Shown one piece after another: positions 30,902-48,300 of a stretch of DNA of 64,000 bases. How positions within the stretch are numbered: position 1 is the first letter of the stretch; every line of letters begins with the position of its first letter. This stretch comes from Tomocerus qinae (taxonomy: Eukaryota; Arthropoda; Collembola; Entomobryomorpha; Tomoceridae). The notes beneath the pieces are model-generated. The model was not told the origin of the DNA. It did not search any database and saw nothing but the letters and a program-made list of their open reading frames with translations. The stretch spans positions 86,056,001-86,120,000 of the forward strand of contig CM034546.1 in assembly GCA_020055645.1 (NCBI GenBank), read 5' to 3'. Position numbers and translations under genes: made by a program.

Positions 30902-31146
30902 AGGTACATGATGGAAAAGCTTATAACACAGGCAGATAGGGCATGTCCTTTCTATGTTATATAGTGTATATAGTATTAGTAATTCTATTATTATACCAAA
31001 CGAATTTTGCAATAAACATTCCCCCTGAGAATGTTTATGAAAGTCATACAAAGTTTTGAAATGAAATGTTGTGTTCTGAGGTCAATTGTACCATCAACTT
31101 TTGCTTTTTACTTTGCACTTTTGTAGGCCATTTTGCAAAATTGTAT

Positions 31147-31603
31147 TGACGTTTTCACGGTTTCTCGTTTGGTGGGCGAGAGGCAGGAGTTATACATTGA
31201 TTTAGTAGGGAATCTTGCGGAAAGTGTTAATAACTTTTTAACCAGAGGAGGTACTTACCATGTGTCAGCGAGGCAGATGTCACAAATTTAATGCAGATTT
31301 CAGAGGTATAAGTCTTATTCTTCTACGATAAGTACAACGGGCGTTATTGCGATTTTTCTAAGACAACCTTTTTGTATGAGGGGAGAATACGACTATTGAT
31401 TGATGCCTGCTACTTGTGTTTTGTAAATAATAACGTATAGATGGAAGACCACTAAACAAAGCAAGAGCTAACTTTTTATTTGGTAACTAGCACCATTAAA
31501 CGTTACCTAATGCTGTTAAATAAAATAAATTACAATTTTTAAATTTCTTTGTTAATATTTAACATAATATAATTGTAATAGTAACAAAATAATAGCGGAC
31601 AAT
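31147..31603. repeat. Left terminal inverted repeat of the ISL2EU element
   Basis: Matches 45898-46354 in reverse complement, with about seven differences in the inner 170 bp. Includes AGGCAGGAGTTATACATTGA and TAGATGGAAGACCACTAAAC. Confidence 0.9.
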
Positions 31604-31744
31604 AATAATTGTAATAATAATAATTATTAATAATTAATTAGTAATTAATAATAATAAATAATTCAAGGTTTATTCTTTCAAAACGCTTCATTATTATCAT
31701 ATAATTGACGATTATTAATACTAATTATTAAGCAAATTTAATAA

Positions 31745-34700
31745 CTACTGACAAATTTCTTGGAAAAAATGAGGCAAGAGGACGGTACACCACAGTTTTG
31801 TTAATTTAAATATTTCGTCTCCAATGTCGCATCTTTCAACTAAGACAAACTCTAAATCATTGGGAGGGACATATAACACTAAATAGGCAGTACTGATGTT
31901 GCAGATGTTCAGTTGCCCTTGTATTTGTAAAAATGTTTTGTGCTTTTGGTTAACTTGTAATTGGCCATTTCGAAATTCTAAATAAAAATTCGCTTCTTTT
32001 GCTCTTTCTATAATTTTCTTTTTCGTTCTAAACAGTGAATATGGACATTTTACTTCTAAAAGGCACAAATTTCCATTATCTAAGACACAAAAATCTGGTG
32101 ATGCCCCAAGAAATGGTATTTTCGGATTTACAACAAGACCGACATTAGCTTCAACATAAGAATTACTGAAGATTTTTTGAGTGTCCAAAAATAGTTTTAT
32201 AGCTTGGGGCTCGTAAAACTTGCCATGGCGTAAAGAGGGTGCATAAGGAATGCATAAAGTTTGCTGATACGCTAAAATTGGATTAGTTGAAGGCTTCAGA
32301 TGCACAAACTTATGAAAATTTGACGCTGTGAATCTGTAAAGTCTTTCTTTTCTCCATAGAAGGGATCTGCTCTGCATTCTAGTTGCTTCTTCAATTCTTT
32401 TAGCTTCTTCAATAGTTACAGCTATTACATTGTCATGGAACTTTTCAAATTTGGAAATTTCAGCTGCAAAATGGGACTTGTATTCACAAAGACTTTCACC
32501 TTCATCAATTTTTTGAAAAATAACATCGGAAAGACTAACCACCCGAGATTCTGGAAAAGAAGTTTTTTCAAATTTTTCAATGAGAATAATAATTTTACCT
32601 CAGCATACACAACACATCGTGGCATATAAGCTAAAAAAGATTAAATTAATTTTGTGTTTAAAAAACTTTGCAATCATACCAACTACCAAAGTACAACTAA
32701 TTTGCTGTATCTATATGACATTACTGTATCTTTTTAAACATTTCCTCTCAGGTTAAACTACTGCCCCGCCAGAAATGGAATTAATTTCCTATTTTAAGGA
32801 ATTTTTATGGAAAAATGAAATATTTGAAATAAATACAATGTGCATTTGTACACGATATTCATAGGAATTTATAGAAATAAATTCCACGTACCCTATATTT
32901 ACTTCAAATATGTCATTTTTCAAAGAAAGTGGGAGTGAAATCTTTTGCGAAATATTTATAGCAATTTTTAACTATTTATTTTTGGAAAATATTTCAAGTG
33001 CCTTGTCTGCACCCAGCAGACCTACTTTCTATTGGATTTCCTCTCGGTTAGCCTAGCTCCCGATACGAAAAATGTAAAAAATGTAGAGTGAAAATTGAAA
33101 TTGATAAATGTTATTTAAGGAAAGAAGTATGTCGTAAAGAGTAATATAAATGTAAGTAAAGGGTGGAAAAGAAATAATTCACTGGTATAAACACACAATA
33201 ATAAAATGTATCTGTAATTACTAGCAATGTACACAAAGGCCAAGTGGGAAGGATTCGTTCACGATTCAAGTCTGGGCCAGGGTACAAGTAACCATAACAA
33301 GAAGTACTGAGGGCAATAGAAGAAGTCTTTTATCCCATAGAACGAGTACATTGTAACATAAGTATATTACCATAAATAAATCAAAGAAATAAGCAGTTAT
33401 AAATGAAAAAAGCATTTCTTCGTGCAATTCCTATATTTAAAAAAAACTACGGAAAATATGATTTTCTGTACTATGTGATGGTATGAGATAAATATGACAT
33501 GGTAATGAATATTCGGTGGTAGGTCGATTTGGCAAAAGTCATTTTGGCAAAAGTTGTTTTGCCACGATTTTGACCCCTCGGGATAATTTGGCAAATCGCC
33601 TTTTTGCCATGTCGGAGAGTTTGGCAAAATGTGCAAACGCACAATCTGGCAAAAACTATAACCGTAGTATAGGATGGATATTGACGGTACTTTAAGGGAC
33701 GCCGACCTTGTACACAAAGAGAAGGTTATTGTACACATATATAAACCTTAAACTACGCAAAGTCACTAGAAAATATCGGAAAAACAGCTTTCCCTTCCAA
33801 AAATTCATAAAAATTGTAGCAATGATTTTGAAATAACTTTTGTTACGACCCTTTATGTATTTGACTGCGTGCATAATGCATCTTTTTAACTTTAACTAAC
33901 TTAATAAATTAAGAATTGACTATGTGATATTTAAAACATAGTAAAAAAGTGCGACAATGATGAATAAAAATTCAACCCGCACATTATTAACACGTTTTGC
34001 CAAACTATCCTCATCGATTTGCCATTCTATCCACAGCCCTTTTGCCAAGTTATCCCCAAAGAAAAAAAAACTGTTTTGCCAAAATGACTTTTGCCAAATC
34101 GACCTACAATCGAATATTCAAATGAAATTGAAATCAAGGATACTTAATGTTATTCATAAAGTATTTACTGTAAGGACTTGTCTTTTTAAAACAACTTCCC
34201 AACGAATGAGTAATTCGGACACATTCCAAATCAAAATTAGAATACAAAACTTGGAACCCGTAATAATGACTACATTAATTTACTATATTGCAACAATTAC
34301 AAATGAGCCAAATACTTACTTATTAGGATCGAAGCTTTGCTTAGTATCCTTATGAATTTGTCGCTGTCACTCTGGCGATCGTCTGGTCGTCTGGTCGTCT
34401 GGTCGTCCACTAATTTTATGGGTGTTTTATTGGCACGTATATCTTTGCAACGACATAACTTATTCCAAATCTGTTTTTTGCATATGGTAGCATATATATT
34501 CAGGATCAACCAGTTATCATTAAAATTCAAATTCGATGCATCCCCTGGTTTGTGGAAATTAAAACATGCAGCAAGTGAGGCAGACAGTAATAGTACGGCA
34601 GGTGAGACAGACAGCGTAGTAGCATAGAGGACTGTAGATGAGCTGAGCTATCTAAGAGACTACACACCGCGCTGGTATTAACATGCTCTGAAACTGCGGG

Positions 34701-37700
34701 AGACAAATGCAATATAAAATAGCTTCTCTTTAGTGCAAGGATTAGTTGAATACAATTTTCGTTTCATTGCAACAATATTGTCACTGCATTGTAACCCAAA
34801 AGTGAAAATTGGCTAAAGAAGAGGATTTTTGTCCATTGTGATTAGTTAAATACAGTTTGAAACATTTTAACGTGAAAATTGTCAAAATATAATGGAAATG
34901 GTTGTCCAAGTGAAATCTTCACTTCATTATGAATACATGTGTGGGATTCATCAGTGGTGAGGTGCAGTTAACTACAATTATCTCAAATCACTATTTAGGT
35001 ATTGTTTAAATCACAATACTACATTCAATTTGTATTGCAATCCAAAAAATTATTAATCGGGTATAATCCTAATCGTGACACTCGATTCTTTCTAGCTTTA
35101 CAGTCACCTGGTGCGGAATTGATTGGGTTGTGATTAGTTTTGAAACATTTTATAGTAAAAATTGTCAAAATATAATGGAAATGGTCGTCCATCGTCACTT
35201 CATTATAAATACTCGTGTGGGATTCATCAGTGCTGAGTGCAGTTAACTACAGTTGTCACAAATCATTATTTAGGTATTGTTTAAATCACAATACTATATT
35301 CAATTTGCATTGAAATCCAAAAAATATTAATCTGGTATAATCCTAATCGTGATACTCGATTCTTTCCAACTTTACAGTCACTTGGTGCGGATAATTGAGT
35401 TCTGCATGTTGACTCATATGAACTTATATGAATACTCTAATACCAATACCATTAACTCCCGCCCAGACTGTTGGACCAAAGACTCTCCTACTATAACCCT
35501 AGATTTTAGATGGCGTAGTAAGTGAAATCTACAAAATCAACAAGATATTACTATTTAGGTATTGTTTAAGTCACGTTACTATATTGAATTTGTATTTCCA
35601 GCTGACTTGCCGAATGCATCCCTACTCATTATTAAATGACATATTCCATTCTTTCCAGCTTTACAGTCTACTAGGAATTGAGTTCTGCATGTTGACACAT
35701 GGTGAAGAATTGAAGTTCACTATTTGGAATAAACATTTTATCGTGGAATCTACAAAATCGACAAGATATCACTATTTAGCTTGGTGTTAATTGACTCCTG
35801 GAGGGTGGATATTCATGACTACCAGCAGTTTGATCTGGAACAGGAATGGGATTCCGGAATGGGACTAATTCAAAAGAAAGTCCCATATAAAATTTCAAAC
35901 TATTTTATAGGACTTTCTCTACAGAACCCAGCTGATACGGGCAGGGGAAGGAGGGAGGAAGAGGCGGGAATCTGTCTATTTGCCTTGATTCTAATGATAA
36001 CTGATTGTGGCTGAATACATGTGCTACCATATGCAAAAAGCAGATTTTAAACAAGTTATGTCGTTCCAAAATATGCGTGCATTTTATTATCGAAGGACAA
36101 CCAGACAACCCACTGGGAAACCATGCTAAGAGCAATAGACTTACTGATAAACAATTGTTGGTTGGGCATAAGCTGCGAAGCAGGCAAATGGTCGTGGCGC
36201 GATCTCAAACTTGCAAACGTGAAATTTCATGTGAATGCAATGCAAGCAGGATATAGTTTATTATTGTTATTGTTGTGCACTGCGCCGTGCACCATCTACC
36301 ATTTCAACCTAGTCTACAAGCTTTAGCAAGTAATTGGTTTCCCTTAGGTGTAGTTTCGCTACTGCCGTTTCAGAGCTACACGCTGTCACTTTTTGCCCTA
36401 TAGCATTATCCTTCCAGATTAACCTATTAGTAGTAGTCTAATTCCGTGCAACCAGACCATCAGAATTTTTTTTTAAATCTCCCGCTTCGATCCTGCGTAT
36501 ACGCCTGTTGCCAACAGTTTATTTATATTACTAGGCCCCCATTACTAATGCTGAATTTCAAAATGATTAAATAGGCATATGGCATATGTTTAATTTTTGA
36601 TATAAGCTAATGTTCACTCAAAATCAATGTCCTAGTCCATAGCGTAGAGAGATATATGGAGACATTCGACATACGCATAAACCACTTTATTATATAAAGA
36701 TGTAGGATGTTATATGTCATATTTTCCACAAAAGTTACGCATGTAAATATATCATTGGTATTGATACTATGCTTAAGTTATAGACACTATTTCACAGAAA
36801 ACCAAAAATCTAAGTATTGCAATTAAGTCGAAAGCATGGACACCAGCAGTTCTATTCAAAGATCGGGTTAAATCGTGATTTTTTCCACAAATTATGATAT
36901 ACCTGCTTATTTCTGGACTCAATGGTACTGATTTTCAACTATAATATAAATCTTGATTTGGTTTTGACGAAATAAAAACGTTTAAGTGTTATGGAATTTA
37001 GTACTCGTTCTATGGCCTTTCGTACTTCTTCATAGTGCCCCATAAACTCTTTCTATGGCCCATTGTACTCGGGACAAAATGACTTCTCTTACAGTCCCAT
37101 AAACTATTACCCCCTTCAAAACATTGTAAGGAATTAATTAATAGTAGTATAGTAACCAATCTTTTGTTTACTTTTTTTCTTATCACAGTTCTTTTCTTAA
37201 CTAACATTTTGAGTTTCAATTTTTGTTACACCGGTCCTTTACATTTCTCTTATTGGGAGGTAGCCTAAACGGGACGGAGTCTGATACGAGAATCTAATAT
37301 TATTTACAAAAAATCCCATAAAAATATTTAAATGTTGATATGCTATTTTACCTTTAGGAATTACGGGAGTAAAGTCGCTAGATTTCCACGTTTGAAGAAT
37401 TGGCAAATTTTTTGACTTGATAGCATCGTAAACAGATTTTAGAGATTCTCTTGTGACATAATTTTTCAAGCTAACGCTAGATGAAAAATTTTCAATCTTG
37501 TCTCCTAATCCCCTTTTCTTTGGCCGTTGGTCAACCTTTTCTACTTTTACTTCACAAAATAAAAACGCATCGTCGCTAACAGGTTTTTTAATATGCCATA
37601 CTTGTGCTTGCTGTGTTGGACAAATAGGTTCTGGAAAAAAATCTTCCCCAAGCATCACGTAATGTTTTATGTTAAAAAGTAGTGCAAGGACGTGCTTGCA

Positions 37701-38394
37701 TTCGCCATCGATTCCAGCTGGGCAGCCACAATGAGCCCAATTGACGGAAAGCGTATCAGCATTATAGCACACGTTTACGCTATAGGCCAATCCTTTCATG
37801 GAAGCCTTTATGTTGCCTTTGTAAAATAGGTACATCGGTAGAAGTGTTTCGTTGGAAAAACTCTGCAAAATGCATCCTGAATGCCATAATTTATAAGCTT
37901 CCTTGGAAATTCTACTTGATATTTTCGAAAACGGAAGCAAAGCAGAGTCAGGAAATTCTTGTAGATACACTTTATTTGTCCATCCAGACTTTGGTGTTAC
38001 CCTTCCTTGAAACCCCAGTAGTTCTAAAATTAAATGAAATAAATAAATGCTTTATATGGACTAATATTAATGGCTTATAAAAACCTAAATTAATAATAGT
38101 ATTTAATTAATATAATTAATTAAATAACAAAATAATTGATGGAATTAAATTGGAAAAAATTAGTGAAACATATGTTAATATTAAAATACCATCAGCGAAT
38201 GAAGGAAACTCCGAAATAATATCCAGACAGGCACGGCACATCCATGGAAAATCGTCATCCACTTCCTCTTCTACTATTCCAAAGCATGACATATGATACC
38301 ACTCCTTGCATTTTTCGCACATGATCATAGGCCTTGTTGGATCATTTATTGTTCGGCAAATACAATAAAGTCTATTGTCCTTAGAGGTCGTCAT
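31745..38394 (-). CDS. PHD-SWIM-YqaJ nuclease of the ISL2EU element
   Basis: Three exons: 38394-38190, 38023-37352 and 32550-31745. Both junctions are phase 1 and GT-AG; each rebuilds a Glu codon, and the total is 1683 nt, a 560-residue protein. Order: a PHD finger (CIC at 11-13, CEKC at 26-29, HMSC at 34-37, then MCRAC), a linker, a SWIM zinc finger (Cys167, Cys169, Cys177, His179), then a YqaJ/lambda-exonuclease-like domain. The latter has RFTASNF, GKFYEPQA (Glu406), LGASPD (Asp445), LEVKCPY (Glu458, Lys460) and QIQGQL, the full metal-site pattern. PHD fingers usually read histone tails; SWIM binds DNA or protein. The nuclease may process transposon ends or intermediates; that is inference. 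ATG at 38394 is chosen as it follows a TTCTATCAG acceptor; an in-frame ATG at 38433 is possible. Intron 2 (4.8 kb) holds two younger elements. Confidence 0.88.
32551..33521. other. Intron of the YqaJ gene, no feature
   Basis: AT-rich, with a TTTCTTTTCCAG-like acceptor at its left edge (minus strand). Nothing else recognised. Confidence 0.4.
33522..34104. mobile_element. TA-flanked MITE rich in TTTGGCAAA
   Basis: GGTCGATTTGGCAAAAGTCA against TGACTTTTGCCAAATCGACC, flanked by TA (33520-33521, 34105-34106). The motif TTTTGGCAAA or its complement recurs many times inside both halves. Mariner-type insertion inferred from TA. Confidence 0.8.
34360..36120. mobile_element. Foldback with internal ~275-bp tandem repeat
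   Basis: CAACGACATAACTT and TTTTTTGCATATGGTAGCAT near 34450-34490 are mirrored at 36013-36070 (ATGTGCTACCATATGCAAAA, AAGTTATGTCGTT). Between the arms a ~275-bp unit (TGGGATTCATCAGTG; GTATTGTTTAAATCACAATA; CTCGATTCTTTC) occurs twice in tandem (about 34828-35400) and a third time in part (about 35540-35700). No protein recognised. Confidence 0.65.
36140..37238. other. Intron of the YqaJ gene, mostly featureless
   Basis: At 37000-37110 the text resembles the arms of the element at 52976-53885 (GGCCTTTCGTACTTC; GGGACAAAATGACTTCTCTT, ACAG), a likely lone arm. Nothing else seen. Confidence 0.4.
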
Positions 38395-39202
38395 TTTGCT
38401 GATAGAATCAAAGAAACAAACCTTTATGGCCAAAATTTAGCCAAACTTAGATTATATAGTAAATGAAAAACGATTTATATTGTTATTTTTTATTTATCAC
38501 TTACTCTGAATTTATTGAATCTCTGTTTGAAATTCTCTATCCAATTCTTTCTCTATCTCAATTTTTGGTGCGGAGTTTATCTATAGTAATTTACAATTTA
38601 CTCAAAGCACCAAAGAAATAATTTGCACCATATGTTTTTTTATACATTTGCTGCTTTTATACTGTGTGCATATTAGGTCACCACAATAAAAAGTAAATAA
38701 AACGCCTATCACACAACAACCTCCACTCTCAATTAGCATATTTCAAAACTGTTTGTACATACTTAGAAAGTTCTGCCTGGATTATTATAATAAAATTATT
38801 TATTCCTATATCGCAGAATCTATCTATGTATCTATCTGTGCCATGGACATTGCAGCATTTTGTTGCAATGCACATGCGCGTATACAATGCATGTTTCATA
38901 AAACAAGGAAGTCCAAAATGGGTAAACATTGGGTTATTTCAAAATTAAATCATGTATGCTGGGGGCTACTAGTAGTATATAATGTACATGTAAATCAAAA
39001 TAACTAGCACAATACTCAACATTGACTCACGAAAGCGTTACAAGCCCTTGTCACTGGACAGGTCAATAAAGTTTAAGGAAATCATCATTTTTAAAGCAAA
39101 TGTCAGAGTTGTATAATTTGTCACAGGTTATGATTACTGAAAAATAATTTTGTATTAAAAAGTTACTTATCCTTTAATTGGCACTTATTAAAGTGTGCAA
39201 AA
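38395..39202. promoter_or_regulatory. Divergent promoter region of the ISL2EU genes
   Basis: The 808 bp between the PHD gene start (minus) and the THAP gene start (plus) must hold both promoters. It is AT-rich; I see no convincing core motif. A possible 5' UTR intron acceptor (TTCTATCAG) lies just before the minus-strand ATG. Confidence 0.5.
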
Positions 39203-42200
39203 ATGCCGAATACAACTTGTTGTGTCGAAGGTTGTCATAATAAAACCAACGACATTCCCAAAATTAGTTTTCATAGACTCCCGATGAATGACGAGAAGAA
39301 ACTTTCAGTTTGGGTTCGCCGTCTTTCTGCAAAAAGAGGTTCGTTTGTGGCTAATTCTGCAATGCGAATTTGTGGAAATCATTTTGATACATTCATGTTT
39401 AAAAAAAATGGACGACTGAAGCCAGGTAATACAATTTAACTACAATTAAACTACCTCAGTATATCGATCAATTAATTTGCAACAGCAGTTGATAGTTCAA
39501 TGAATTTAGACATTAGAAATTTAAATTTCGAACATTTTATTCATTGAATTTTATCACATAAAATAAGCATAAATATGTTTTTATGGATGTTGTGCAGTTT
39601 TAGCTCGCTTTTCGTATAAAACTATTTTGTCAGTGCAACAAATCTAGGCATGTACAGATACCCACAGGAGTATTTGAAGTAACTAACCCAGTAAAAACGC
39701 AGTAAAAATGTAGTAGAAATCACTCTACTAGTTTAATAAAATTTTTCTTACTAAGTAATTTAATTGTAATCTTTTTTTAAATTTGTAACTTTAATTATTC
39801 AATTTGAAAAGTCAGGCTCTTATTAGAAATATCCATTAACCTTTTAGCTTGGATTCTTTGAACCAATCTTAGGGCTGCCATTACCAGCAGTCGAATAATT
39901 GATGCACATAGTGTAACATATTTTATTTCTCGTATTTATATTTTAGTGCGTAAATTGCAAGAAAAAGAAAAATTATTGGTTTGAAAAATAAAAGGAGAAT
40001 CCTACAGAATATCACAATTGATTTTCCGAGACCAATAAATGGAAGAGCTAAATTAATTATAACTCTAAACGGTAGCAACATCATAAATAAATCTAAATTA
40101 GCGCTATATGAGTATCAAATAAGATGAAAAGTTCAATTAAAATGTTGTGTATGCATTCACCAACAATTTTTTGTAAGTTTACTACGAGTGATCGATTATT
40201 ATTTTTTTTAAATCTTATGACCACAGAAATTTATTGAGTATATTTGCAGGTCAAGTGTAAGCCAAAATGCGGAAATGACTGTCCCCATGCATTTTAAAGG
40301 ATATTTACTAAAATGGAAATGATTTTTATTTTTGTCCCATGCTAACATTAAGTTAGGATAAGATAAGATAGAATTTGTCTGTTTTGTTTTTGACTTCAGA
40401 TGAATATTACCCTATTATTGTTTTGCATAATTACTTCTTTAAAAAACTTGCAATAGAACTCATGAAAGTTGCGAGATTCAGACCGCAATTCGAATCTACT
40501 ATCATGATATCAAACATCAACAATGATGATTGACATTTTAGAACAACCATTTCCTTCTCGATTTTAAGGCATTAAATAATTCGATCTCAAAGGAAGTTCG
40601 TTGCTAATTTGCCCCTGGATCACAAGAACGGAGAGAAGAATACGCTAGCGACATAACAATGATATTTTTTGAGAATCACTTAATAAATGATTTAAAATTA
40701 GTGAGAAAAATGTGAAAAATATGAGTGGAAATTTAACCCAGGAGATCTTTCTAAGCTGGAAAATACTTTTAATTTTAAATATCCCCTTATTATCATCGAT
40801 AAATGCGTGATGAAAATCGATTGACTTTAAATAGTCACAGAAAATAGAAGGTTTTAATAGAAAACAAGTGAAAACAAATTCTTGTAAAGTTAAAATACTT
40901 GCCTAATACCGTCAATTTATCAAGCTGAAGTGTACCACTCTTTTTTGAATTTGTTTGGAAATTTTCCACTAATTTTCAACCTGATGTCTAAACTTAGACC
41001 TTTCAATTTCAGGGATAAGTTCATTATTGTAATTTCACTCAGTCTTTCGAATAGTTTCCGATATTTGGGCGTACTACTATCGCTTTTTGAGTTACTGAGA
41101 GTGATATGAGTCATGGCAATAAATTTTTTATATTTCATTTTTTAATTTTTTATCAAAGTGGGAAACAATGCAATTTTGTTTATAGATATTATATCGTAAG
41201 AAATTTTACGCACTTTATATTATGGTAATATGTAACAATATTATCAAATAAATATGATAGCAGTAATTTAATCTTGGAACGAAATATATGAGCCCCAGAT
41301 TATTAAATAAACATGGAAAACTTTCTTAGGTTGTTAAAAAATTCAAAAAGTGACTGTGACATTAATGACATGGATTAATTTTATGCCATTGTCATAATTT
41401 TATTTTGTATCTAATTTATCTAAATTTCTTTTTTGAAACACAATCAATGTAATTAATGTTTTATTAATAAAATGTATTTCATGACTATATAATAGATGCT
41501 GTTCCAAAGATCTTACCTTGGAATAATTTGAAGCTTTCTCAAAAATCAAAATCCCCTAAAAGCATTCTTACTACCTCGCCTCGATTAGAAGCTCGACGTA
41601 CTTCATTTTTTAGTGCTGCAAATATGAAGAAAAATCCAAAGATTTTGCAACGTTACACTGGGATGAAATCAGTAGACATTTTTGACAGCCTATTCACATT
41701 CTTTTTCTCACCTTTGAGCAAAATTGGCACGCTAAAAAATTATATTAGACAAAATTATGTCCCAAATCCTAGCACTCCATCTAAGAAAAGAGGACCACCT
41801 AGAAAATTAAAGCTAGAAGATGAGTTTTTAATGACGCTGATAAGACTCCGAAGAAATATTCAAGTCGATGTTATCGCCGATATGTTTGGTGTCGCAATTG
41901 GCTCAGTATCAAGTGCAATAAATACTTGGCTGATTGTTATGGAGAAAATGTTTCGTCTAACACCAATTTGGAGAAAATCTGAAGACATAGCAAGCACTGT
42001 CCCTGAAAAATACTTAAAGTATCCTAATTTGAGGGCTATTTTGGATTGTACTGAAGTAGAAATTGAAAAGGCGTCTGATGTTAACATTCAAAAAAATACG
42101 TTTAGTAATTATAAGCAACGAAATACAGTAAAAGGCTTGGTAGTTATGAGCCCTGATGATCAAGTTATATTTGTATCGCAAATGTATCACGGATCTGCTT

Positions 42201-42772
42201 CTGATAATAAGATAGTGAACCATTGTGGAATACTGGACATGTTAGATCCCGGTGATGCAATCATGGCTGACCGAGGATTTACCTTAAAAAATGAATGTCA
42301 GAAAAAGGGGATAGAGCTAATTATCCCAGACTTTTTAGCTGGAGCGGCACAATTAACGCCGGATGCAGTGCGTCGCAGCAGAGAAATTGCTCGGCTAAGA
42401 GTTCGGGTAGAAAATAAAATTGGAGCGATTAAATTTTTCAAAATTCTGCATTCAAAAATTCCATTGACCCTACAGCCAATGGTAGATAGCATTTGGATTG
42501 TTTGTAATTACCTTGTAAATTTCACATCTCCTCTGTCACCTAATGACGAGGATTTAATGGAAGATGACGAATTAGACATGCCTTTTTCAACCGATACTAC
42601 GCCTTCAATTAATTTATTTCCGGATTCTGCTTTAAAAGACCTCATTCTGCCACAGGACTTGATTCCCAAATTTTTGGATATTTCGAGCCAAAACACAGTG
42701 AACAATGTTGAGACTTGTAGTATTGTGTGTGGAAAACTGGTAAATAAACATAATTTATCATCGCTAGAATAA
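39203..42772 (+). CDS. THAP-DDE transposase of the ISL2EU element
   Basis: Two exons, 39203-39425 and 41496-42772, with a GT-AG phase-1 junction that rebuilds Asp in KP-D-AVPKILPW, the motif that usually follows a THAP domain. Total 1500 nt, 499 residues. The THAP domain (MPNTTCCVEGCHNK, SFHRLP, VWVRRL, ICGNHF) binds the transposon ends. Next come a spacer and a helix-turn-helix (LMTLIRLRRNIQVDVIADMF, GSVSSAI). The DDE_Tnp_4 core shows RAILDCTEVE (Asp258), IMADRGFTL (Asp333) and RVRVENKIG (Glu380), a full catalytic triad. The middle motif YHGSASDNKI is also typical. Close relatives are HARBI1-like and THAP-fused transposases of other animals. The product should cut and rejoin the terminal repeats in the nucleus. 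No break is seen, so it looks functional. Confidence 0.92.
39426..41495. other. Intron of the THAP-DDE gene
   Basis: 2070 bp, AT-rich, GTAATAC donor and ATAATAG acceptor. No recognisable element; a 72-codon minus-strand frame at 40920-41138 has no known motif. Confidence 0.6.
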
Positions 42773-44079
42773 CCTTTATTACTAAACCTACAAATAATTT
42801 ATTTTTAAGCATTCATAATAATAAATTTCTTTTAATGTGATTCTGTGATAAAAATTCATTTCTTCTCATCCTTGCTGAAAATGTTTTTCAATTCCAATGC
42901 CTTAAATTTAAAAAATAATGTAAGACTCAGATAAAATATAGAGAAAAGATTATGAACGCTCGAAGCTATTTTATTTCCTGACCGCAAACTTCAACAAAAA
43001 TTAGTATTTTAGATGCTGAAAATAAACATTTTCATTCTTAAATTCAGCCGATTTCCAAAAAATATTTTAATTTAAAATTCACACTTATCCAATTTCAAAT
43101 GTAATTCCAGTTTCGGTAAATCGTAGCCTACTTGATGAAAATTGAATGAAAACTTTATTTTAAATATTTAACCAGATTAACGATAAATACACTGTGACAC
43201 ACCTCATTGTACCTAAGCAAGAAGGAGGGTCAAATTTTTGTGATGCACTTGATGAACCTAGCATTCAAGCTGAAGTCACACAGGTTGAAAATAAATGATA
43301 ATATAATTTAAATTGTAATGTAATTAAGATCTAAATATTTATTTATTTTACAGCTAAACTTAATTACTTTGGGATGGATACATACACATCCATCGCAAAC
43401 TGCTTTTTTATCTTCTCCTGATCTCCACACGCAATTTGGATACCAATCTCTACTACCAGAAAGTGTGGCGATAGTTTGCGCGCCTTCGTATAATCAGTAA
43501 TTAAAATTTTTATTATTGTTTTAAAATTTCTAATTTCATATATGATTGTTTTCAAAATTTATGTACATTGAAATATGATATTTACTATCGAGACAGACGT
43601 TGGGATGAGAGTCATATCAAACTGTTCTGATCAAAGTTTTTTTCATAATCATGCTACAACTGACGTAATTATCTCATTTCCATTATTTTATTTAAAATTA
43701 GTAATTTTTTTAGCTAAATGATGTTTATTTTCTTTGTTAGATGCCGCTGTTTCATGAAGCCACCCATGTTGGATTTACAAACGAATTTAGTATTGTTGTG
43801 ATCGATATTCGGACTTCGGATTGAAAATTTTCATTAATTAAGATTTTTCAGAGGGCTTTTTTCAAAACCTGAAATTTATGGTGTTGTGTTAAGACATAAT
43901 ATGACAGTGGTTATCTAGTTTACTTTAATATTAATAACCAAACATTGAAAACATAAATACTGATATACTAAGAATACTAAGAAGCTTATTTTTTGCACAT
44001 TTACCCCTCAGGGTTTAAAAGCCTAAAAGGCCTGACCGGAGAGTGGGGCACTCTACCTGTTCCACCCTGCAACCCTAAC
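42773..44079. other. 3' flank of the transposase gene
   Basis: No gene recognised. An AATAAT/AATAAA-rich stretch just after the stop (42790-42835) could supply the polyadenylation signal. Confidence 0.4.
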
Positions 44080-44083
44080 TTAA

Positions 44084-45278
44084 GGAGCTGGTCACTAAGT
44101 TAAGTCACAAAATTACTTTTGCCCCCAAAACATCAATTCTACTTTGGTGATTTCCATATTTTCTACGCAACTAGTACAAACATTTATCTAGTGATTTTTG
44201 GTTCTTAATGCTGCGAAAACCTCACTACGTCAAACATTTCGAAATTATTTTCTCACTTTCTCCATTAGAGCCAGGCCACTGTTTTCAGCAAATGTTTTTA
44301 TCATTTTTCCCGATATAATGCGAAAATTTTGAAAGTTTTTTGTGATGGTTTACGTATTCGATACTCATTTTTACAAAAATGTCAAAATCGTTCATTGTGT
44401 CTCGCTTGGGGAATATTTAGAAAATTGTTCTTCTTTTCGACAAATTCCATGTTTTTGTCCAGGAGAAAGTCAGTTGCGTTTCGAGCATAAAGACGGAAGC
44501 ATTTTCTTTTTGATACATTAATTTAACTATACTTCAGATTCCGAGGTTTTCGTTGTCATTAAGGGTTTGTAATGTTCTGACATTTTCACCCAGCGCACAA
44601 CATAACCTAAACACTTGGGACCTATCCTTTACTTTTAAATTTAAATCCATTTAAATACTATCGGAATTTTTAAAAGTGCAGTATCTTACTCCGTCTATGG
44701 CTTCCGGGTCATTTGGACAGTAGGTTTCATTGTCCAATACGATTAATTTTAGTGATTTATAGTTGAGTGATTTTTCAACGAGTGTTCAAAAATTCGATTT
44801 CCCGGAATTATTCTACCTTAAGAGAATTTTGAAACACTAGTTGCTTAATGTGTCTTGAGTCCTAATATATTGGTCTTCATTTTGGGAAAATAGGATTTTG
44901 ATAATCCTACTTTCCTGGTCGCAGCACTTTTTGAAATACGTGGATGGTCCTAAAAGACTTTCTTGTCGTTTTTAAATTCACTTGTTTCTCGTTCCTAATA
45001 CTGGCCAACAATTCGTGATATGGTTATTTTGGGTATTCACTCTTGAACAAAGTGAGAAAGCGTCTTTTTCGGGTTCCACCGAAACACTTTATCGTAGTAG
45101 TGGCAAATACGTTTTGCAACTTCGTCCGAATTTTTTATTGTAACTTTCGCAATAACTGAAGTACAGAAATAAGGCTAACATATTTCAAATCGCAGAAACC
45201 TGGCGCTTACAAATTTAGTATGCATTAATTTATACTAATTACTTATTTTAAAAGGGCATCAAACTTAGTGACCACCCC
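44084..45278. mobile_element. TTAA-flanked inverted-repeat element
   Basis: GGAGCTGGTCACTAAGTTAA at the left and AAACTTAGTGACCACCCC at the right are inverted, each bounded by TTAA (44080-44083, 45279-45282). TTAA targets are typical of piggyBac, though the tip is not the usual CCY. No transposase inside. Confidence 0.55.
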
Positions 45279-45282
45279 TTAA

Positions 45283-45897
45283 TTTATTATAATATAAATA
45301 AAACCTAACCTACGAATGACTCGCTTGGGGCACCTTTCCTTAGGTTATTTGGTTTTAACAGTGTTTCAGAAACTTTACTGTCAGACAATATATTGCACGT
45401 CGTTTTAGTCGTGTGAACGGGGGTTAAATCGATTTTCAGGTATTTTTAAGTTTTCTACCAACTTCCCCTTTGAGGGGAAAGTTTTAATCTGGTAACCAGT
45501 GTCATTGGACCTGTCCGTTTTAATTCTTGCTATTGTACGGCCTTGTAAGAAAAATACAACCGAAATATTAACGATTTTCGGGCATTTTAAAGTTTTTTCC
45601 CAATTTCCCTATAAGGGGAAAGTTGTAATCTATTTATTAGTGTCCAAGAAACCTGTCAGCAGTCAATCTAGATATTGCATTACTTCATATTTAACTATAA
45701 ATTGTTCCTCCAAAATTTGAACAGTCTAGCTCAAACCGTTCGAAAGTTATCGTGCCCAAAGATAACTGTACAGACATATTGAAATAGTATTTATACAAAG
45801 CAAATAAACTTCTGATGTGAATAATAACCGTTAATTATTAATTACATAATACCCTTATATAATAAATTAATAGACAAATAAATCATTGATTCAATTT
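45283..45897. other. Gene-free part of the ISL2EU element
   Basis: AT-rich; a 73-codon plus-strand frame at 45499-45720 is not recognised. Confidence 0.4.
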
Positions 45898-46354
45898 AAT
45901 GTCCGTAATTATTTTGTTACTATTACAATTATATTATGTTAAATAATAACAAAGAAATTTAAAAATTGTAATTTATTTTATTTACAAGCATTAGGTCACG
46001 TTTAATGGTGCTAGTTACCAAATAAAAAGTTACCTCTTGCTTTGTTTAGTGGTCTTCCATCTATACGTTATTATTTACAAACAACAAGTAGCAGACATCA
46101 ATCAATAGTCGTATTCTCCCCTCATACAAAAAGGTTGTCTTAGAAAAATCGCAATAACGCTCGTTGTACTTATCGTAGAAGAATAAGACTTATACCTCTG
46201 AAATCTGCATTAAATTTGTGACATCTGCCTCGCTGACACATGGTAAGTACCTCCTCTGGTTAAAAAGTTATTAACACTTTCCGCAAGATTCCCTACTAAA
46301 TCAATGTATAACTCCTGCCTCTCGCCCTCCAAACGAGAAACCGTGAAAACGTCA
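45898..46354. repeat. Right terminal inverted repeat of the ISL2EU element
   Basis: Reverse complement of 31147-31603, ending GTGAAAACGTCA. Confidence 0.9.
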
Positions 46355-46356
46355 AT

Positions 46357-46819
46357 AAAAGTAAAAAGTGAAAAGTAAAAGTTACAAGTAAAAAGTGCTT
46401 ACTTTTTAATCTCTGTTGCACGGACAACAAAACGGAAAAGAAAAGGTTGAATAACTTTACAGGCTTTTTTGCAAGGTGTGCAGAGGCTTGTCAAGTTAGT
46501 CAAGTATAATAATACTACATGAGCAATAGGGTACAAATAAGATTATATTAGCCAGCAAGCCGGCCGGCTAAAATGGCCGGTCACTGAACACTGCTCCAGA
46601 CAAGTACATAGACTGTAGTTCTACAATATCATCTGTGTGTGTTTTATTTGATGTTTGAATGTTTGTGACTTTTTTGTGTTGATTTATTATTATAGTATAT
46701 CTTTTTAAGATAGAGCCTTGCAAATTCTAAGAGGTTTGCTGAAATAGATTGCAGAAATAATTAGCAGTTAGTTTTTTATCCGTAGTGTAAGAATGAGCCT
46801 CCCGTGGTAATATTTTGAC
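46357..46819. other. Spacer with CCGG element end
   Basis: Holds an A-rich AAGTAAAAAGTG repeat stretch (46358-46410) and the CCGG-rich end at 46546-46593 that mirrors 29360. No gene. Confidence 0.4.
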
Positions 46820-48300
46820 TTGTCTAGAATCTATACCGTTATTGCTTTCCAGCAATACGGTCTAGTATCGTTGGCTCTACCAAATGCATTCTGTTTGCCA
46901 CGGAATCCGTGGCAAACAGAGGTGAAGACCGACAATGAGGCGAGGTGGAAATGAGTGGAGGCGGCCAAAATATCCATGGTTATTATAATAAATAATAAAT
47001 CAGAACACAGCATTTCATTTCAAAAGTTGTATGACTTTCATCAACATTCTCAGGGGGAATATTTATTGCAATATGCGAATGTATTCGTTTAATATGATAT
47101 ACTACATACATTTGAGCATATTACATTATTATCACCATCCTAAGCTACACTTTCTACAGTGCGTACTCAGCTCTATGAATAATACAAGCTATAATATTTT
47201 ATTGGATTAACTTTCGAACTATGAAAACATCATAATAGACTAGATTATCTTAATTAATTACTGTTTGGAAGGAGCAACTGCTGACACACAAAATAGAAAG
47301 ACACAGTAAATTTTTGGGTTATAAATCATCAATATTGTAAGTCACTGCATAAAAAATTTTAGAACAAATTACAACCTTTCCGAATAAATTACAACATTTC
47401 CGAATAAATTATTACAATTATTACGCAGATAAGGCTTAAGGATACTTCATGAGAATTTCATCTACTTCTACGGCAAGGATTAAGATTTGAATACATCAAT
47501 AACATAAAATTACAAAATGATAAAATGTTGGACGAAATGTAATTATTTTATGAATTTATTTCACGGCTAAAAGCTTTTGGCATGCATTCCAAGTGAAATG
47601 TAATTAATCCTGCCAATCTCGCACATCTCGCACAAGTCGCGGAGGTCTTAATGTTGGGTATATACGGTTAGGTAATTCCATTTCTTCATCTATCGGTTCT
47701 TCTTGTTTGGCCAACATTCTATGTTGTAATTTATTCGGAAAGGTTGTAATTTATTCGGAAAGGTTGTAAAATTTTTTATGCAGTGACTTACAATATTGAT
47801 GATTTATAATCCAAAAATCTACTGAGTCTGTCTATTTTGTGTGTCAGCAGTTGCTCCTTCCAAACAGTAATTAATTAAGATAATCTAGTCTATTATGATG
47901 TTTTCATAGTTCGAAAGTTAATCCAATAAAATATTATAGCTTGTATTATTCATAGAGCTGAGTACGCGCTGCTTAGGATGGTGATAATAATGTAATATGC
48001 TCAAATGTATGTAGTATATCATATTAAACGAATACATTCGCATATTGCAATAAATATTCCCCCTGAGAATGTTGATGAAAGTCATACAACTTTTGAAATG
48101 AAATGCTGTGTTCTGATTTATTATTTATTTATTATAATAACCATGGATATTTTGGCCGCCTCCACTCATTTCCACCTCGCATCATTGTCGGTCTTCACCT
48201 CTGTTTGCCACGGATTCCGTGGCAAACAGAATGCATTTGGTAGAGCCAACGATACTAGACCGTATTGCTGGAAAGCAATAACGGTATAGATTCTAGACAA
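46820..48300. mobile_element. Near-perfect 1.5 kb palindrome (foldback)
   Basis: Arms 46820-47410 and 47712-48300 are inverted with very few differences over ~590 bp (TGTCTAGAATCTATACCG at the tips; inner hairpin GTTTGCCACGGAATCCGTGG with CAAAC; GGAAGGAGCAACTGCTGACA). The ~300 bp centre is unique. The frames found in the two arms are the same text read twice and are not genes. Confidence 0.88.

Follow-up and report, generated by a model that had tools for sequence, protein, structure and literature searches.

As described in the parts of the literature compared here, ISL2EU elements of the PHIS superfamily encode a THAP-HTH-DDE transposase and a partner protein with a YqaJ nuclease domain (PMC4482050, PMC9179366). 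They occur in animal hosts, duplicate an AT dinucleotide upon insertion and carry terminal repeats of 6-259 bp that usually start with GG (PMC4482050). Proteases acting on ubiquitin or SUMO are known from other transposons. Ginger1 transposons have a C-terminal OTU or Ulp1 domain, for which a role in repair after transposition was proposed, and one has a PHD finger (PMC2836005); Helitrons encode VTD and OTU deubiquitinases, some of which were shown to be active (PMC9741609). Ulp1 is also found in Mutator elements, and a Trichomonas transposase carries a C19 peptidase; cysteine proteases of this kind have been gained repeatedly by unrelated transposons, and the portions of these papers considered here propose the repair role without a demonstration of it (PMC2836005, PMC9741609). 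Positions 31147-46354 of a 64,000-nucleotide stretch of the genome of the collembolan Tomocerus qinae (C1:86056001-86120000, CM034546.1; hereafter the window) are an ISL2EU-type cut-and-paste DNA transposon, the transposase gene of which runs into a predicted zinc metalloprotease domain of the JAMM (MPN+) type.

Comparisons of the element covered the rest of the 334-Mb genome, Pfam, PDB sequences and the open-access literature. Its assignment to ISL2EU was made by domains, YqaJ partner and target duplication, and the trees of the transposon genes cover this genome. The window copy is designated W, and related copies are B163 (C1:16.30 Mb), D718 (C1:71.81), E1401 (C1:140.11), C7 (two near-identical inverted copies) and C10 (C10:0.32). 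The transposase gene, open reading frame (ORF) 1, consists of the following parts:

39203-39425, plus strand: ORF1 exon 1, THAP domain (Pfam THAP 1.3e-13)
41496-42739, plus strand: ORF1 exon 2, HTH, DDE (D258, D333, E380) and start of JAMM (Pfam DDE_Tnp_4 7.1e-39, HTH_Tnp_4 2.2e-9, JAB 8e-14)
43176-43283, plus strand: ORF1 exon 3, JAMM domain (in-phase join; AMSH match)
43354-43496, plus strand: ORF1 exon 4, JAMM core (in-phase join; AMSH match)
43571-43664, plus strand: JAMM exon 5, the part with C...FHxH (acceptor defective, TG)
43741-43824, plus strand: JAMM exon 6 and stop, end of the JAMM domain

A first-pass annotation of the window, made from the sequence without database searches, had ended this protein at residue 499. 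An uninterrupted reading of 39203-39425 and 41496-42772 does give 499 amino acids, with D258, D333 and E380 present, so that the joined frame and the catalytic triad stand. The proposed end does not: a GT donor after Leu-489 (42739) precedes the stop and is followed by JAMM exons. The 37 codons from 42629 (residues 453-489) already belong to that domain and include its catalytic Glu, and an MPN+ domain of the AMSH/STAMBP type spans 42629-43824 across the ORF1 exons. Searches of PDB sequences matched STAM-binding protein with an E value of 1.9e-41 for exons 2-4, improving to 1.6e-49 with the inclusion of exons 5 and 6; STAM-binding protein, AMSH-like protease and sst2 were the best matches, with RPN11 far behind. 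From these matches, the C-terminus of ORF1 is predicted to be a JAMM (MPN+) deubiquitinase domain of the AMSH/STAMBP type.

Both the JAMM motif (Glu, HxH, SxxD) and the residues of a second zinc site (His, Cys, FHxH) are present. The catalytic Glu is kept in all four lineages in which it is covered, and HxH, Ser, Asp, His, Cys and FHxH are kept in 5/5 element lineages. The roles of these residues, including that of His, Cys and FHxH in the second zinc site, are presumed to be those known from work on AMSH-LP.

It was of interest to determine how widely this arrangement recurs. Among the 94 DDE matches listed (93 of 167 candidates scored), the DDE sequence of W's clade is present at nine loci, namely W, B163, two on C7, D718, E1401, C10, C1:28.47 and C1:133.99. 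JAMM sequence follows DDE at 9/9 of these, two of them being the near-identical C7 copies and C10 being a weak case, with the start of JAMM inside the DDE exon and a 28-residue match (E 0.005). In W, C7 and D718, DDE stands in a single open frame with the first stretch of JAMM. Terminal repeats bound four copies, W, E1401 (1026 bp, 99.8% alike), D718 (773 bp, 99.5%) and C7 (94 bp, 98.9%), and enclose both genes and JAMM in each; a search for those of B163 found none within the stretch compared. Four further loci at which DDE and YqaJ are paired coincide with none of 25 JAMM matches (E up to 10). It is very probable that the transposase gene of this clade includes JAMM as a fixed component. Searches of viral and prokaryote contigs with the DDE-JAMM exon alignment yielded no confirmed relative.

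The JAMM sequences are 43-67% identical between lineages, and the fusion point is the same. Between W and B163, 141 JAMM codons gave 0.22 non-synonymous (dN) and 1.22 synonymous (dS) substitutions per site, and a ratio of the proportions of such differences (pN/pS) of 0.32 (bootstrap 0.24-0.45). The corresponding ratios were 0.31 for DDE (194 codons) and 0.28 for YqaJ (262 codons). The constraint on JAMM resembles that on DDE and YqaJ.

The likely source of the domain lies in the same genome. A gene at C1:100.66 Mb has a JAB match of 7.4e-23, part of USP8_dimer (0.00026, below the Pfam cut-off) and human AMSH as its best PDB match, and is on these grounds the host AMSH gene. It has four introns in the JAMM region, of phases 0, 0, 2 and 0, which lie at the same place and in the same phase in those copies of the element that extend over these introns; this argues for the capture of genomic DNA rather than cDNA. 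In a tree that joins the JAMM sequences of five element lineages with the host gene, human AMSH and AMSH-LP, the latter three cluster apart from the elements (0.997). Where these three AMSH sequences have SSVDLHTH, all five element lineages have SSPDLHTQ, and one additional residue ahead of FHxH is common to the element copies. The DDE, YqaJ and JAMM trees all split W and B163 from C7, E1401 and D718; the DDE tree orders the latter group differently, although its support there is weak (0.70). On these sequence data the simplest reading would be one capture of AMSH, before the element lineages split, while a second capture may have taken place, the tree containing three AMSH sequences only. A recent capture in W alone was considered and rejected, as JAMM recurs at the other loci.

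The partner protein is encoded by ORF2, on the opposite strand:

38190-38394, minus strand: ORF2 exon 1, PHD finger (Pfam PHD 2.2e-9)
37352-38023, minus strand: ORF2 exon 2, SWIM-like motif CxCPxGxxGxCKH (residues invariant in 5/5 lineages; Pfam weak)
31745-32550, minus strand: ORF2 exon 3, YqaJ nuclease with E406, D445, E458 and K460 (Pfam YqaJ 1.9e-8, Viral_alk_exo 5.6e-7)

Here the first-pass annotation was borne out in its gene model, in that the three exons join in phase to give 560 amino acids with the four YqaJ residues in place, and in its call of a PHD finger. The E/D/E/K residues are kept in 8/8 aligned sequences. For the proposed SWIM finger, the CxC-x7-CxH residues held, being invariant in 5/5 aligned lineages, but Pfam did not support it: the W exon gave no match to SWIM even at E 5, and scores below the cut-off were obtained for C7, one of three relatives tested (0.085), and for an ordinary ISL2EU locus (0.0075). 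The residues are weakly suggestive of a SWIM finger in exon 2. A search of viral contigs with the alignment of this exon produced no confirmed relative.

In the relatives, PHD, SWIM-like and YqaJ sequences lie on separate exons divided by short introns, with phase-1 donors at the same joins where inspected. These exons recur next to the same transposase across divergent lineages, which supports both the ISL2EU type and the pairing of ORF1 with ORF2 as first annotated, and copies assigning the genes to different elements were looked for in the genome and not found. Among the 82 ORF2 matches listed, those outside W's clade span the YqaJ part only, and PHD matches are confined to the clade. At the ordinary ISL2EU locus C1:81.86 Mb the SWIM-like motif stands in one frame with YqaJ; it was not found in the YqaJ-bearing open frame, the frame considered, at four other fetched YqaJ loci. 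Thus it is PHD, not SWIM, that marks the clade within this genome. The novelty first assigned to the accessory protein is accordingly retained for PHD but not for the SWIM-like part, and the JAMM domain on the transposase, which that annotation had not seen, is the more unusual feature. Compared with a sister copy, the YqaJ exon of W is 98.5% alike, with 8 synonymous and 4 non-synonymous codon differences, and the adjoining intron 93.5% alike. At least 80 YqaJ matches were observed in the genome, many in long open frames, and YqaJ-bearing elements are therefore abundant in it.

The boundaries of W, and an insertion within it, are as follows:

31147-31605, plus strand: left terminal inverted repeat (97% complementary to the right end; ends common with miniature inverted-repeat transposable elements (MITEs); AT at 31145-31146)
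45896-46354, minus strand: right terminal inverted repeat (boundary fits exactly in 5/5 empty host-repeat copies fetched; AT at 46355-46356)
33515-34111, no strand: nested insertion of 597 bp in an ORF2 intron (8-bp duplication GAATATTC at 33507-33514 and 34112-34119)

The near-identical ends reported at 31147 and 46354 were recovered as part of an inverted pair, 31141-31605 and 45896-46360, 97% alike; the element reads TGACG from 31147 and CGTCA up to 46354, with AT on both sides, as expected of the ISL2EU target duplication. The context is T/AT/A around W and A/AT/TGAC at 7/8 other ends of the family examined, one deviating; the terminal repeats of E1401 and D718 adjoin A/AT. Most copies here thus have the A/AT/T target in common with ISL2EU (PMC4482050). 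A query with the left 180 bases of W matched at least 42 places in the genome (51 candidates, 40 scored). They include 12 opposed pairs spanning 569-583 bp, which are MITEs belonging to W's family. A query made by joining the two flanks of W had 47 matches, of which 38 ran across the join, and this places W inside one copy of a host repeat. On the left side of W (31134-31146, versus 46355-46370 on the right) this repeat is short by 18 bp against 5/5 fetched empty copies, so the left AT duplication is not provable from empty sites.

W is about 15 kb long, as first annotated, compared with about 7 kb in two relatives bounded by terminal repeats. Its ends hold, but the length includes the nested DNA at 33515-34111, for which the sister copy at C1:140225049 is an empty site, and nested insertion has added to the size. 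Terminal repeats of about 459, 773 and 1026 bp, with ends TGACG, GACTG and AGACC, depart from the length range and the GG start of ISL2EU; this mismatch is taken as descriptive, not defining, because the part of PMC4482050 considered gives a range and the word 'usually'. The E1401 element (C1:140103850-140111050) was probably inserted recently, as its 1026-bp repeats are 99.8% alike, despite a stop in its transposase frame. Further repeats were noted: direct repeats spaced about 220-285 bp apart in the ORF2 intron (34856-35800), a long tandem repeat between the two inverted copies of the related element at C7:1190944-1209483, and a fold-back at 47116-48000 of the window with 30-nt arms 100% and 209-nt arms 97% complementary.

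The reading favoured here, somewhat more probable than its negation, is of an ISL2EU clade with a THAP-HTH-DDE-JAMM transposase and a PHD-SWIM-YqaJ partner in which JAMM acts in transposition; that it does so as a deubiquitinase is put at about an even chance. BRCC36 is a host JAMM enzyme acting on break signalling and repair, and AMSH-type enzymes prefer Lys63-linked chains to the Lys48-linked chains of proteasomal decay. The model starts from the anatomy, recurrence, coding constraint and host intron matches described above. An ancestor would have taken the 3' part of the host AMSH (STAMBP) gene as genomic DNA with its introns, and the captured MPN+ domain would have become the transposase's C-terminal part. 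The element ends would be bound by THAP and HTH, and DDE would cut and join at AT targets. PHD may help the partner protein to dock on chromatin, and YqaJ, a lambda-type exonuclease, may process the ends or the gap, which would correspond to the chromatin targeting and DNA trimming first suggested for the accessory protein. JAMM would most likely strip Lys63-linked ubiquitin, a preference proposed because the domain is AMSH-type, from proteins at transposase-bound DNA; this could damp break signalling or steer repair, like host BRCC36. The retention of JAMM by relatives in the same genome suggests that ubiquitin removal helps the transposon to move.

Three other accounts were weighed against this reading. 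It is unlikely that JAMM is a useless passenger, a transduplicated fragment of a host gene. Transposons do capture pieces of host genes with their introns, and the JAMM exons have decayed in several copies, but the fusion point is shared by lineages as divergent as those noted above, the active-site residues are kept and pN/pS is like that of the transposase. A similarly low probability is given to the idea that JAMM deubiquitinates the transposase or its partner so that the protein lasts, without effect on break signalling. The Lys63 preference of AMSH-type enzymes, as opposed to the chains of proteasomal decay, speaks against such a stabilizing function, although a comparable protective role is suggested for Helitron deubiquitinases in the part of that work considered (PMC9741609). 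Very improbable, finally, is an ordinary ISL2EU element with a 499-residue transposase and the downstream JAMM exons outside its mRNA: that frame runs uninterrupted to a stop codon, yet its tail is already JAMM sequence cut by a GT donor, the following exons extend the domain in phase, and the relatives are alike at the same places.

Several observations weigh against a functional JAMM transposase. No fully intact copy is present among those compared. The acceptor before JAMM exon 5 is TG in W and AG in its nearest relative, B163, and if the intron is retained the protein terminates straight after APSYNQ. W is for this reason not fully intact; it keeps the JAMM core, while splicing of the last two JAMM exons has probably been lost. 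The earlier description of the element as apparently whole is therefore upheld for its ends and catalytic motifs but not for the whole of ORF1. E1401 has a stop codon between DDE and the catalytic Glu of JAMM, D718 an insertion within the JAMM core exon, and C1:28.47 frame breaks, with the last His of FHxH out of frame; the first JAMM exon of B163 was not found; C10 has only the two short JAMM matches mentioned above; and C7 has a stop in the YqaJ exon and no THAP match. The other 14 JAMM pairs have pN/pS of 0.38-0.60, most of them near saturation. The evidence, moreover, is that of sequences from one species, and the Lys63 preference is an argument from family membership. Overall, the initial observation is partly confirmed and its interpretation partly supported.

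In comparison with the known systems, a JAMM domain in the transposase and a PHD finger in its partner are found here only, as judged from the parts of PMC4482050 compared; its main text, as far as seen, contains no match to JAB, PHD or SWIM. In searches of the open-access literature, no paper was recognized that reports a transposase with a JAMM, AMSH or MPN domain, or a PHD finger in ISL2EU. With Ginger1 the element shares a ubiquitin/SUMO protease domain fused behind a DDE-type transposase, but the Ginger1 proteases are cysteine enzymes on a Gypsy-integrase-like transposase, in contrast to the zinc metalloprotease and DDE_Tnp_4 observed here (PMC2836005, as far as compared). Helitrons likewise encode deubiquitinases, but these are cysteine proteases of rolling-circle elements (PMC9741609, in the part considered). 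Host AMSH/STAMBP and AMSH-LP have in common with the element a complete MPN+ domain that contains both the JAMM motif and the residues of the second zinc site, and differ in having an N-terminal USP8_dimer part in the place of the transposase.

A metalloprotease on a transposase, constrained like it and drawn from a family noted for a single type of ubiquitin chain, is a convergent case from another enzyme class, in which an intron-bearing host gene probably gave rise to a lasting part of a transposase. It also makes the idea of a repair role for transposon deubiquitinases directly testable. Rather tentatively, at somewhat less than an even chance, the clade may possess its own break-handling kit, in which a host-derived, Lys63-specific deubiquitinase on the transposase erases ubiquitin at the element's own breaks, alongside a chromatin-reading exonuclease. 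If true, a JAMM deubiquitinase would here be carried by a transposase for the first time, and the element would be an example of a transposon that turns off host ubiquitin signalling at its cut site.

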